From positions 1 to 64,000 of the forward strand of contig DASSIZ010000011.1 in the NCBI GenBank assembly GCA_035691485.1: DNA of 64,000 bases, given 5' to 3'. The DNA comes from Terriglobales bacterium (GTDB lineage: Bacteria > Acidobacteriota > Terriglobia > Terriglobales > Acidobacteriaceae). The translations under genes and the position numbers were made by a program. Under the pieces are notes generated by a model. That model was not told the origin of the DNA and searched no databases. It worked only from the letters and a program-made list of their open reading frames with translations. How positions within the stretch are numbered: position 1 is the stretch's first letter; each line of letters begins with the position of its first letter. Below, one piece after another: positions 18,128 through 30,534 of this stretch.

Positions 18128-18242
18128 GTGAGCCTCCTTGCGGGCGATGAATTTGGGATTCTACCACTCGTCACCTGCGGAAGATTACCGGCGTAATTTG
18201 CGGGATTCTTTAGGCACGCTAGGATGCGTTTCGGGGTGAGTC

Positions 18243-18368
18243 ATGAAGGATGCGCAGAGGCCGCAGGGGCTGGCCGGAATGATGGAGACCAAGATATGGG
18301 ATTTCCTGACCGTGGCCGTGCTCCTGGTCGTAGTGGCACTGACGTATCTCTGGCTCGCACCGCAGTAG
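18243..18368 (+). CDS. 41-residue single-pass membrane microprotein A
   Basis: An open frame read directly from the sequence: a polar N terminus (MKDAQRPQGLAGMM), then ETKIWDFLTVAVLLVVV-type hydrophobic helix and a short YLWLAPQ end. It has one membrane segment (about 20-38). A second gene 250 bases downstream encodes the same length and pattern (ETRIWDYITFGVLVMLAVV, then YSWLVPH), so coding is supported by paralogy: ET(K/R)IWD(F/Y)(I/L)T, followed by a helix and (Y/S)-W-L-(A/V)-P. GGGGTGAG lies 2 bases before the ATG. No known family; the size recalls small subunit-type proteins of oxidases or transporters. Confidence 0.7.
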   Translation: MKDAQRPQGLAGMMETKIWDFLTVAVLLVVVALTYLWLAPQ

Positions 18369-18445
18369 ACCTTGGAACTTGAATCGGAGCGTTCGATACG
18401 CCGTGACTTGGGGGAGAAACGGCCTAGAGGACGCGCCGAGGTGAT

Positions 18446-18474
18446 GGCACGGTTCGCGCCGTGCCTTTTTTATT
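18446..18474 (+). terminator. intrinsic terminator after microprotein A
   Basis: Perfect 7-bp arms GGCACGG / CCGTGCC, 6-base loop, then TTTTTTATTT. It lies 78 bases downstream of the first microprotein gene and separates it from the second, so each is probably expressed alone. Confidence 0.85.
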
Positions 18475-18491
18475 TCAGCGATTTGCTCCTG

Positions 18492-18512
18492 GCCATTAGC
18501 TGTTAGCCGGAA
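18492..18512. repeat. short 7-bp array
   Basis: Three heptads GCCATTA, GCTGTTA and GCCGGAA follow the terminator. Minor example of the period-7 arrays. Confidence 0.4.
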
Positions 18513-18623
18513 ACCGCTGCTTTTGCGTTACCTCCGGACAATGCGCGTCCGATACCGTGCCTCGGCCCGGCGTAACATTGCCGCCGATGGGCAGGTGGGC
18601 CACCATGAGTATGGGGGTGGGCC

Positions 18624-18749
18624 ATGCCAATCAGCCGCACACAGCACGTACAGACGCCACTGAACGAAACCCGCATCTGGGACTACATCACGTTCGGAGT
18701 GCTGGTGATGCTCGCGGTCGTGATCTATTCCTGGCTGGTACCTCACTAG
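18624..18749 (+). CDS. 41-residue single-pass membrane microprotein B
   Basis: The second of the pair. It starts MPISRTQHVQTPL, then NETRIWDYITFGVLVMLAVV and ends YSWLVPH. Same length (41), same ET(R)IWD-aromatic-T entry to the helix and same Trp-Leu-x-Pro exit as microprotein A, while the N-terminal 14 residues differ. A GGGGGTGG stretch lies just upstream of the ATG. A period-7 array follows the stop. Function unknown; the two could be isoforms in one complex or differ in regulation. Confidence 0.7.
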   Translation: MPISRTQHVQTPLNETRIWDYITFGVLVMLAVVIYSWLVPH

Positions 18750-18760
18750 GGAGTTTCGAG

Positions 18761-18823
18761 TTTCTGGCTTCTGGCTTCTGGCTTCTGGCTTCTGGTTTCT
18801 GGTTTCTGCCTTCTGGTTTTCGG
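18761..18823. repeat. CTTCTGG 7-bp tandem array
   Basis: Nine consecutive heptads with consensus (C/T)TTCTGG run from 12 bases after microprotein B. This is the longest and cleanest period-7 array in the window and has no opposing arm. Confidence 0.9.
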
Positions 18824-18851
18824 TATCCGGAATCAGTGAGGGCAGGATCGA

Positions 18852-20249
18852 TCAGGCGCCGCGCTCGTTTTGAAAGTGCCCCCGCACGAATTCCACCGCC
18901 TGCTCGCGAGTGGTGATGGTCCCTTCCAACTGGCCGTCCTCGACGGTGGAAAGAATTTCGCGGAATCGCGGCCCCGGCCGGTACCCCATTTCCAGCAGAT
19001 CGTGTCCGGTCAGAAGCGGGCGCGGACGAATCTGTTCCGGCGGCGTCTGTTCAATCTTCAGCCGCAGGAATTCGTAGATACCGAGATCACCGTGACTAGC
19101 GAGGCAATCGATACGGTGCATTTCCAGGTGCTCGCCGAATTCAGACTGGCGCATAAAGCGCTTCAGGGTTGAGGGTTTCATCTTGAGCGCATCGGCAAAG
19201 CGCATGTGCTGGCCGACGAGGGCGGCAATCTGCTCTGCATCGTCGTTGGACATGCGTAGCCGGCGCGCAATTTCCCCAGCCATGGCGACGCCGACCTCGA
19301 CGTGATTGTCGAAGCGGATGCGGTCAGGCGCGACGCGGAACGTGGGCGGCTTGCCCACATCGTGTAGCAATGCGCCCCAGCCGAGCGTGCGCGAAGCGGC
19401 CGGCGGCAGCTTTTCCAGCATGAGCAGGGTGTGAATCCACACGTCACCCTCGGGATGAAACTGCGGCGGCTGCTCCACGCCCTTCATCTTCTCCACTTCG
19501 GGCAGGACTTCGTGCAGCAAGCCGGATTCATCCAGCAGCTCGAAGGCGCGGCGGGCGCGGCCCTCGGTGAGCATCTTGGTAAGCTCATCGCGCACACGTT
19601 CGCGGCTGACTTGCGAAACTTGCGGCGCCAACCGGCGAATGGCACGCATGGTAGCGTCATCGATGTGGTAGCCAAAGCGCGCGGCAAAACGCACTGCGCG
19701 CAGCATCCTCAGCTTATCTTCAGCAAAGCGCTGTTCCGGCAACCCGATGGTGCGGATGATCTGGTTCCGCAAATCATCCTGGCCGTTGACGTAATCGAGC
19801 ACCTGGTTGGTGACCGGGTCGAGCAGCAGGCCGTTGATGGTGAAGTCGCGGCGGCGCACGTCTTCACGGGGATCGCGGGTGTAGGTGACCTCGTCGGGAT
19901 GGCGGCCGTCGGTGTAGAGGCCGTCGGAACGGAAGGTGGCGACCTCAATTGTCGGGTGGTTGGTGGCTAGTGGTTGGCAGATGGGAGCCGCGTTCGAAGA
20001 CGAGCGCGTTCCGTGGTTAACCGAATCGACCGGAACCAACACTACGCCGAACTGCGCGCCCACGGCCCAGGTTTGGGGAAAGATGCGCATGACATCGTCA
20101 GGGTGTGCGTCGGTGGAGACGTCGTAGTCAGCGGGCTCGCGGCCGAGCAACAGGTCGCGCACACATCCGCCGACCAGATAACCCTGGTACCCGTGCTCGC
20201 GCAGCGTGCGAATAATTCCGACGGCAGCGGCTTTGGCGGAAGCAGGCAT
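18852..20249 (-). CDS. cca: CCA-adding enzyme / poly(A) polymerase family with HD domain
   Basis: A 465-residue class II tRNA nucleotidyltransferase. Catalytic head: LVGGCVRDLLLG at 25-36, DYD at 41-43, and RRDFTINGL near 133-141; then the RMLRAVRFAARFGY helix and an HD domain with His296-Asp297 (ALLHDVGKP). It matures tRNA 3' ends; whether it adds CCA or only part cannot be told. Residues about 74-99 (DSVNHGTRSSSN...TNHPT) interrupt the strand pair that normally joins VVLV to IEVATFR. The DNA for this insert holds a period-7 array (GTGGTTG, GTGGCTA), suggesting a repeat has entered the gene in frame. Confidence 0.9.
   Translation of the reverse strand: MPASAKAAAVGIIRTLREHGYQGYLVGGCVRDLLLGREPADYDVSTDAHPDDVMRIFPQTWAVGAQFGVVLVPVDSVNHGTRSSSNAAPICQPLATNHPTIEVATFRSDGLYTDGRHPDEVTYTRDPREDVRRRDFTINGLLLDPVTNQVLDYVNGQDDLRNQIIRTIGLPEQRFAEDKLRMLRAVRFAARFGYHIDDATMRAIRRLAPQVSQVSRERVRDELTKMLTEGRARRAFELLDESGLLHEVLPEVEKMKGVEQPPQFHPEGDVWIHTLLMLEKLPPAASRTLGWGALLHDVGKPPTFRVAPDRIRFDNHVEVGVAMAGEIARRLRMSNDDAEQIAALVGQHMRFADALKMKPSTLKRFMRQSEFGEHLEMHRIDCLASHGDLGIYEFLRLKIEQTPPEQIRPRPLLTGHDLLEMGYRPGPRFREILSTVEDGQLEGTITTREQAVEFVRGHFQNERGA
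19956..19983. repeat. 7-bp array inside the CCA-adding gene
   Basis: Four heptads (GTGGTTG, GTGGCTA, GTGGTTG, GCAGATG) lie within coding sequence, exactly where the protein has a non-conserved insertion. Most other arrays are intergenic. Confidence 0.65.
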
Positions 20250-20322
20250 TAGCTTTTGGCTCTTAGCTTTTGGCTCTTCTGTCCAAAAAGCTAATGGCTA
20301 ACAGCCAAGAGCTAGTTGCTAG
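20250..20322. repeat. inverted 7-bp arrays between cca and tsaD
   Basis: Left units alternate TAGCTTT and TGGCTCT, each twice (20250-20277). Right units AAGCTAA, TGGCTAA, CAGCCAA, GAGCTAG and TTGCTAG (20288-20322) keep the same period. The arms are largely complementary. It sits between the two divergent start codons, within 10 bases of each, so it must overlap both promoters or leaders. Confidence 0.8.
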
Positions 20323-24999: not shown

Positions 25000-26193
25000 G
25001 ATTTCCAGCATCCGGTCCAGCGCCACCCGGGCCCAGTACTTGACCTCGTCTTTGACCTGGATACGGTTCACGACGATGCCGTCCACCAGGCTTTCGAGCG
25101 CCCAGCACAGGTGCTGTGGCGAGATGCGAAACATAGTGGTGCAGAGGCAGCCGGAATCGTCGAGCGTAATCACCGTCTTGTCCGGCGCGACCTGTTTGGC
25201 GAGCCGGTTGACAAGGTGAATTTCCGTGCCGATCGCGAACTTGGATCCCGCCGGGGCCTGCTCCACCATCTTGATCAGCTTCTCGGTCGAGCCAATGCCG
25301 TCAGCCTTCTGGCAGACTTCCAGGCGGCACTCCGGATGCACGATAACCTTGATGTCGGGATACTTGGCGCGAACTTTATCGACGTGCTCGGGCAGGAAGC
25401 GCTGGTGAACCGAGCAGTGGCCCTTCCACAAAATGACCTTGGCGGCGCGAAGCCGATCCTTGCTTAGCCCGCCTTGTGGCAGAAATGGGTCCCATACCAC
25501 CATATCGCCGAGCGGAATACCCATGCTAAAGGCGGTGTTGCGGCCCAGATGCTGGTCCGGGAGAAAAAGAATTTTCTCGTTCTTGGCGCGGCCCCAGTCG
25601 AATGCGCCGCGCGCGTTGGACGAGGTGCAGACCAGACCGCCGCGCTCGCCGCAAAAGGCCTTGATGGCGGCGGTCGAATTCATATAGGTAATCGGCGTAA
25701 TGCCCCGGCCCGCATCGGTGGTCACGCCCAGCGCGACCAGTTGCTCCCAGCAATCTTCCACCTGCGTAATTTCGGCCATGTCAGCCATGGAGCATCCAGC
25801 ATTGAGATCAGGCAGAACGACCACCTGGTCATTACGGCTGAGCACGTCGGCGCTTTCCGCCATGAAGTGCACGCCGCAGAAAACGATGAACTGGCCACGC
25901 GCTTGCGCCGCCATCTTGGAAAGCCGGTAGGAATCCCCGGTGTAGTCGGCGAAGCGGAAGACTTCGTCGCGCTGGTAATGGTGTCCGAGGACCACGCAAT
26001 CTTCGCCGAGCGCCTGCTTGGCGGCGCCGATGCGCTTATCCATCGAGATATCGGGCAGGACAAGATAATTATCCAGCCTGCAGCTGGAAGCAATTGCTGT
26101 TGCCACTTTCGAACTCGCTTTCAGTCCCGCGCGTTGACCGCGTGGAACGGGGTTGTTGAAAGCATCCTCCGGCTCCAGTAGATCCACTGCCAC
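24994..26193 (-). CDS. nadA: quinolinate synthase NadA
   Basis: A 4Fe-4S enzyme that condenses iminoaspartate with DHAP to give quinolinate for NAD synthesis. The three-repeat fold is seen from LGEDCVVLGHHYQRDEV; cluster cysteines lie in NAGCSMAD, GGLVCTSSNA and DSGCLCTTM. The full frame gives 399 residues from GTG 26193, directly after an in-frame stop. The first 29 residues are unlike relatives, and GTG 26106 is an alternative start. The motif ACGGGGTTGTTGAA occurs twice, at 26147 and 26207, in this uncertain leader. nadB and nadC are not in view. Confidence 0.92.
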   Translation of the reverse strand: MAVDLLEPEDAFNNPVPRGQRAGLKASSKVATAIASSCRLDNYLVLPDISMDKRIGAAKQALGEDCVVLGHHYQRDEVFRFADYTGDSYRLSKMAAQARGQFIVFCGVHFMAESADVLSRNDQVVVLPDLNAGCSMADMAEITQVEDCWEQLVALGVTTDAGRGITPITYMNSTAAIKAFCGERGGLVCTSSNARGAFDWGRAKNEKILFLPDQHLGRNTAFSMGIPLGDMVVWDPFLPQGGLSKDRLRAAKVILWKGHCSVHQRFLPEHVDKVRAKYPDIKVIVHPECRLEVCQKADGIGSTEKLIKMVEQAPAGSKFAIGTEIHLVNRLAKQVAPDKTVITLDDSGCLCTTMFRISPQHLCWALESLVDGIVVNRIQVKDEVKYWARVALDRMLEIQ

Positions 26194-26220
26194 TCAGGCC
26201 CGACCTACGGGGTTGTTGAA
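26147..26220. repeat. 14-bp direct repeat at nadA start
   Basis: ACGGGGTTGTTGAA is repeated exactly at 26147-26160 and 26207-26220, 60 bases apart. One copy lies inside the putative N-terminal coding part and one upstream. Confidence 0.6.
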
Positions 26221-26395
26221 GCCGCTGGTTGTTTCTTGCCTACCCTTACAGATGTTTGCGTCGGGCAAAAAGGTTCAGCCTTCAGCGCAAGCACCCGCGG
26301 GGCGTGCAATCTTCAATTGTGCATCGTGGGAGGTGCGGGTGCAAGACAAAAACCCACTCACCGTCAGGATCGGCCAGGGTTCGGTCAGAACCGGG

Positions 26396-30299: not shown

Positions 30300-30534
30300 G
30301 CTCCGACATCACTGGGCGAAAACGGAAACTCAGAACTGAGTTTGACGGACGACTCACGTGACAGCAGGTCGCTGTCCACTGGAAGGCGTTTCCTTTCCAA
30401 ATGACCCGCTCAGCGGCGGGCACGGGAGGCGCCGGCGTTCCCACCTGCACCCTGATCCCGAGTGTCTACCCGGGAATCGCCACGAGGGCCTGGGTATTCC
30501 TGAAGGCCCCACGCGGTCGGAAACCACGCACTTG
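30300..30534 (-). promoter_or_regulatory. structured moaA leader, candidate Moco RNA motif
   Basis: Between a TATAAT (30535-30540, minus strand) and moaA lies a leader of about 240 bases with several stable stems: CCCGC/GCGGG around 30403-30420, GGAA/TTCC around a GGAAA loop, GACAGC/GCTGTC, and near the gene a 7-8 bp hairpin AAACTCAG/CTGAGTTT. The order and its place before moaA recall the Moco RNA motif that controls molybdenum cofactor genes by sensing the cofactor. I could not fold it or compare it with the family model. Confidence 0.45.

Follow-up and report, generated by a model that had tools for sequence, protein, structure and literature searches.

Two diverged predicted membrane microproteins and a conserved hairpin between dciA and cca in a genus of Acidobacteriaceae

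CydX, KdpF, AcrZ and MgtS are small single-pass membrane proteins of bacteria which serve as regulators or as accessory subunits. Two 41-residue proteins predicted from an acidobacterial genome, here called A and B, resemble these proteins in size, in the possession of a single helix and in having little outside the membrane. Unlike proteins of this kind, A and B reach the cut-off of no Pfam or NCBIfam family and lack a recognised partner gene at their side. Other described systems connect a short protein with an RNA. In Salmonella, TimP is a short inner-membrane protein and TimR represses timP by binding to its mRNA (PMC7667032). VcdRP of Vibrio cholerae is a dual-function RNA, whose protein VcdP (29 aa) binds citrate synthase and whose RNA part has known targets; four consecutive cytosines are reported to be required (PMC8672173). 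Moreover, most small protein families in global catalogues such as GMSC lack an assigned domain, with 15.3% predicted to be transmembrane or secreted (PMC11364881). Like TimP, A and B are short proteins of the membrane by prediction and have an RNA connected to them; unlike the TimR arrangement, the RNA at this locus has a downstream position on the same strand, and local pairing was looked for without success. With VcdRP, the A locus would share a small ORF and an RNA segment on one RNA, but the run in its loop consists of guanines and not of cytosines. With the uncharacterised families of the GMSC type, A and B have in common the lack of an assigned domain and the predicted transmembrane character. 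A limited search of open-access papers, which says little on novelty, listed no title that deals with this family or with the combination of small proteins and small RNAs in the Acidobacteriota.

The locus lies in a stretch of 64,000 nucleotides of a Terriglobales bacterium (assembly GCA_035691485.1, contig DASSIZ010000011.1, positions 1 to 64,000), hereafter the window. A first-pass annotation had described two 41-residue frames, 255 nt apart, and both are present in the ORF list of the window (Table 1). A and B have ET(K/R)IWD(F/Y)(L/I)T in common, and likewise a single hydrophobic stretch and W-L-x-P, as that annotation had noted. Its proposal that they are paralogs is borne out by BLASTP, in which A and B of the window were identical at 12 of 27 core residues with an E value of 1e-9 in one single comparison, and by hhalign, which gave 98% probability when the four-sequence alignment of A was compared with that of B. 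Across the genus the shared pattern is (D/E)T(K/R)xWD, followed by one hydrophobic stretch and by W(L/F)xP. Separate diagnostic residues are retained by A and by B across species, an indication of two roles. In two genomes of the genus (G001 and G002) B is shorter, with 38 residues in place of 41, owing to an in-frame 9-base difference.

Table 1. Coordinates of the features of the A-B locus in the window.
Feature	Position	Strand	Description	Basis
Promoter-like boxes and short leader upstream of A	18197-18242	+	TTTGC 18197-18201, 18 bases, TAGGATGCG 18220-18228	
Gene A	18243-18368	+	41-aa single-pass membrane protein (predicted) MKDAQRPQGLAGMMETKIWDFLTVAVLLVVVALTYLWLAPQ	
Conserved hairpin	18384-18439	+	Invariant loop ACTTGGGGGAG; putative 3' UTR of A	Folds, alignment A12, model R2
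Hairpin and T run following A, similar to an intrinsic terminator	18446-18475	+	GGCACGGTTCGCGCCGTGCC then TTTTTTATTT	Terminator scan, folding
B leader	18525-18623	+	Imperfect inverted repeat (TTACC...GTAA) and conserved G-rich ribosome-binding-like GGGGGT	Alignment A9
Gene B	18624-18749	+	41-aa single-pass membrane protein (predicted) MPISRTQHVQTPLNETRIWDYITFGVLVMLAVVIYSWLVPH	

AlphaFold2 predicted one helix in each protein, comprising residues 9-38 of A (mean pLDDT 74.8, nine-sequence alignment) and residues 12-38 of B (mean pLDDT 77.5, four sequences), in both cases with confidence limited to the middle. The best 18-residue hydropathy ranged from 2.0 to 2.6 over the eight A and B sequences of the genus. 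By these predictions A and B would consist of a single hydrophobic helix and little else, as do small single-pass membrane regulators. The predicted helices, together with the constraint at the protein level described below, are in line with the earlier designation as membrane microproteins. Thr, Trp and Asp are fixed at the helix mouth and one Trp stands near the opposite end. These residues look like a combination of anchoring and a putative specific contact, as for docking. The N-terminal parts carry charges of both signs, so that charge favours neither end as the cytoplasmic one. The first-pass annotation knew of no family for the proteins, and Pfam, NCBIfam and PHROGs agree with it. No Pfam or NCBIfam family scored above its cut-off for A or B, the best sub-threshold matches being Ost4 for B (E 0.15) and VirB10 for A (E 0.19), both non-significant, and none of the PHROGs families was matched. 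A polar N terminus followed by a short hydrophobic C-terminal half would also suit an exported or processed signal, pheromone or leader-like, with the helix as signal sequence. However, the conserved residues stand before the helix and at its ends and only about three residues follow it, so almost nothing would be released, and inspection of the window by eye showed no recognisable gene for processing or export next to the pair. We regard such signals as very unlikely.

Selection on the two frames was estimated according to Nei and Gojobori for six genome pairs. The dN/dS ratio was 0.19-0.34 for B and 0.46-0.78 for A. For the core of A (residues 15-41) it was 0.54-0.62, except in the closest pair, G001 and G002, where a ratio of 1.10 derives from four changes only (3 nonsynonymous, 1 synonymous). 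The observed BLOSUM62 similarity was reached by randomly placed base changes in at most 5% of trials for 11 of the 12 ordered pairs of B and for 10 of the 12 of A; the ordered pairs are not independent, and the exceptions belong to the closest pair. Judged by these values, B is clearly under purifying selection. A is constrained as well, though less tightly; its substitutions are conservative, and its case is partly carried by the homology to B. The first-pass annotation had held that neutral ratios in relatives would speak against the pair. B is clearly non-neutral, while A lies nearer to neutrality and is upheld by the BLOSUM62 test and by its homology to B. The frames could also be chance frames and not genes. 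They are short, and random substitution left the frame open in 28-92% of trials, so that an open frame alone is weak evidence; the ratio of A is moderate as well. Against this stand the homology between A and B, the recurrence in four of four genomes and the conservative substitutions, and we consider chance frames extremely improbable.

The A-B pair occurs in the same order in all four genomes of the genus examined, the window's own (G000) and three relatives (G001-G003). One lone homolog, MSLRTKVRAQSWETRAWDFITVAVMLVTAFSCAIWMVRS, was found in G018, a genome of another genus of the same family, with an E value of 0.001 using A alone and of 6.4e-6 using a profile from which this homolog had been excluded. 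This homolog is located downstream of a reductase-like gene and adjoins sugar-nucleotide genes (gene names by eye), a setting unlike that of the genus pair. No further convincing members came from samples of 300 genomes of the family, 397 of the order and 399 of the class, which overlap; only the best 18-24 candidates per genome were scored, and weak members may have escaped. As found here, the distribution is narrow, comprising one genus and one lone homolog. No relatives of A or B were present in the viral contigs, plasmids and phage records searched, which makes a mobile-element gene unlikely.

Several weaker candidates were set aside. The family search gave 19 weaker places with E values from 7.8e-5 to 0.05, of which ten were read, together with G603 and G623 from the class search. 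The best of the weaker places, G055 (ETRSWGW, E 3.3e-4 with profile A11), lies inside a 781-codon frame, and several others are segments of long frames. G050 (PWDSISF) is antisense to a 544-codon frame; when 18 other genomes of its genus were searched with its peptide, three of them gave matches, all weak (E 0.05-0.08). G282 (TRAWDFLT, in a 34-codon frame) has no helix. The remaining nine places were judged from the table only, eight of them in frames of 110-894 codons and one (G151) in a 66-codon frame, as were two places from the order search in frames of 436 (G324) and 334 codons (G379). Two of the weak single-query matches (E 0.3 or more) were read. Peptide patterns from B alone matched, among GTDB contigs, the G001 record and one Bacteriovoracaceae MAG; the latter match covers 15 residues only and was dismissed as chance.

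Within the genus the pair sits between cca and a DUF721 gene, which we take to be dciA. The gap measures about 730 bases in the window and is made up of A, the RNA element and B. For comparison, we extracted the dciA loci of 22 genomes together with about 1.5 kb of flank per side; 18 of these genomes lie outside the genus. gatA lies near dciA in all 18 outside loci; a cca match was found near dciA in five, and 13 have no cca in the fetched flank. In four of the 18 (G006, G008, G009 and G012) the matched ends of dciA and cca are roughly 50-240 bases apart and the pair is missing, and the A/B motif was seen near dciA in none of the 18 (flanks of roughly 1.5 kb). The simplest reading, though not a proven one, is that the pair was inserted into an older dciA-cca pairing. 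Since the neighbouring genes are housekeeping genes, they indicate no partner for A or B, and no partner gene was recognised among the neighbours. In G007, the dciA-cca gap of about 780 bases holds a different ORF, by eye response-regulator receiver-like (locus L090, about 2100-2490); genes may have been gained repeatedly at this gap.

The first-pass annotation had also placed a strong terminator between the two genes. A terminator was indeed called at 18446-18465, by a scan for which 0.8 such sites are expected in shuffles. In front of it stands a larger, conserved hairpin, which the annotation had not mentioned. In the window, this predicted hairpin starts 15 bases past the stop of A, and the terminator follows directly. 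Folded alone, it gave z-scores of -3.8 in the window's genome, -5.5 in G002, -4.3 in G001 and -5.6 in G003, with none of 200 shuffles as good in each case; its ends were picked after the first fold, which flatters these scores. The whole spacer folded with a z-score of -2.0 in the window and of -6.2, -5.2 and -4.6 in the three relatives. All four genomes have the same loop, ACTTGGGGGAG, while the outer stem strands vary yet still pair. Covariation over the alignable stem was not above shuffles (reached by 133 of 500, with only four sequences); the structure thus rests on folding energies and paired outer stems and not on the covariation test.

Hairpin-only model R2 matched five of 300 family genomes, namely the four of the genus and G085, where the match is false, lying in a gene that by eye is sugar kinase-like and lacking the loop. 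The hairpin is, as far as this family sample goes, specific to the genus, with four of four genomes positive and nothing credible among the other 296. With model R1, which includes the terminator, 109 of 200 family genomes had a match at E 0.05; the ten best foreign matches share only a G+C-rich terminator-like or palindromic hairpin. R1 had a second match within the window's own genome (C108, 32.8 bits). Twelve sites from a loop-pattern search, the query of which had wrong flanking bases and missed the true sites, were folded and one (G049) was read further; none was convincing. In Rfam, no family reached the gathering score over 18150-18860. The best match, BSnc120 (22.8 bits against a gathering score of 114), was discarded as weak, and a scan of the whole window at gathering score gave nothing near the pair. 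Elsewhere in the window, two tandem nadA riboswitch matches (26117-26163 and 26171-26223, 40.2 and 57.1 bits) and a molybdenum/tungsten cofactor riboswitch match (30374-30534, 46.2 bits) lie on the minus strand.

The hairpin opens two further explanations of the locus. A has a conserved ORF and a terminator-like site, and a transcript of about 240 nt is presumed; the sigma-70 scan gave no promoter. This transcript could encode the membrane protein and carry the hairpin as well, with a G-rich loop that pairs with target mRNAs or binds a protein, whereas B would be protein-only. Stacked stems that beat shuffles in four genomes, a loop that is invariant while the outer stems vary and still pair, the position between the stop of A and the terminator, and the restriction to the genus in the family sample all agree with such a dual-function RNA. 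On the other hand, pairing of the loop with A, the B leader and the dciA leader was no better than in shuffles (start regions, four genomes), the stem covariation stays within shuffles and a structured 3' UTR may merely stabilise the message. We consider the dual-function RNA unlikely, although it is the main rival. It is likewise doubtful that the A locus is a genus-born dual-function RNA, combining a microprotein and a hairpin regulator with a fixed CUUGGGGGAG loop beside a paralogous protein-only gene. The other explanation, possible with less support, takes A and B as membrane toxins of the type I toxin-antitoxin kind, similar to TimP and restrained by an RNA. Size, single hydrophobic helix, tandem paralogs and an adjacent structured RNA fit this type. 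Yet the conserved RNA lies on the same strand and is not antisense, its loop pairs with the start regions of A or B no better than in shuffles, the plasmids, phages and viral contigs searched gave no relatives, and B, whose charged motif is fixed, changes slowly under purifying selection. Type I toxins are accordingly improbable in our estimate.

Upstream of A, both TTTGC and TAGGATGCG are invariant in the four-genome alignment. Since the canonical sigma-70 scan found no promoters, an A promoter is inferred from these boxes. G-rich ribosome-binding-like stretches precede both starts by eye. The B leader did not fold clearly better than shuffles, with z-scores of -0.1 in the window and of -1.8, -2.4 and +0.8 in relatives. 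The arms of its inverted repeat differ together between genomes (alignment A9), and the repeat could be an operator or an RNA stem. In the window the repeat lies at 18525-18590, and it was seen in the same stretch of L002, L003 and L004, reading TTACCTC...GAGGTAA in G002 and CTTACTTT...AAAGTAAG in G003. The pair had further been described as bounded by a CTTCTGG array. This array (TTCTGGC in tandem) is present at 18753-18819, between B and cca and 3 bases past the stop of B, but on the right side only, and it is absent after B in the three relatives. It is not part of the A/B feature. A 14-base repeat (TTAGCTTTTGGCTC) was noticed at 20249-20278.

Based on the computed frames, homology, conservation, helices and hairpin, we favour, with a probability of roughly 0.5, that A and B are real, translated and diverged copies of one small protein, acting as single-pass accessory or regulatory proteins from separate transcripts. 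Each protein would insert into the membrane by its one helix, with a juxtamembrane Glu/Asp-Thr-Arg/Lys-x-Trp-Asp and a Trp near the far membrane face. By means of this helix and the motif at its mouth, it would, like other small single-pass proteins, dock to a larger membrane protein complex, the stability or activity of which it would tune. A and B may serve different partners or conditions. With separate promoters, the A gene would combine conserved upstream boxes of its own with a structured 3' UTR and the terminator, and B would have its own leader.

Without a phenotype, A and B are one more family among the many families of small proteins that are uncharacterised. A hairpin that acts in trans would represent a dual-function RNA in the phylum Acidobacteriota, for which a narrow literature search listed none. 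A dual-function A would moreover place two natural versions of the same protein side by side for comparison, one with an attached regulatory RNA and one without it. As it stands, the locus suggests a genus-restricted family of membrane microproteins, with two diverged copies that are both under selection and lie, between two housekeeping genes, in a variable gap.
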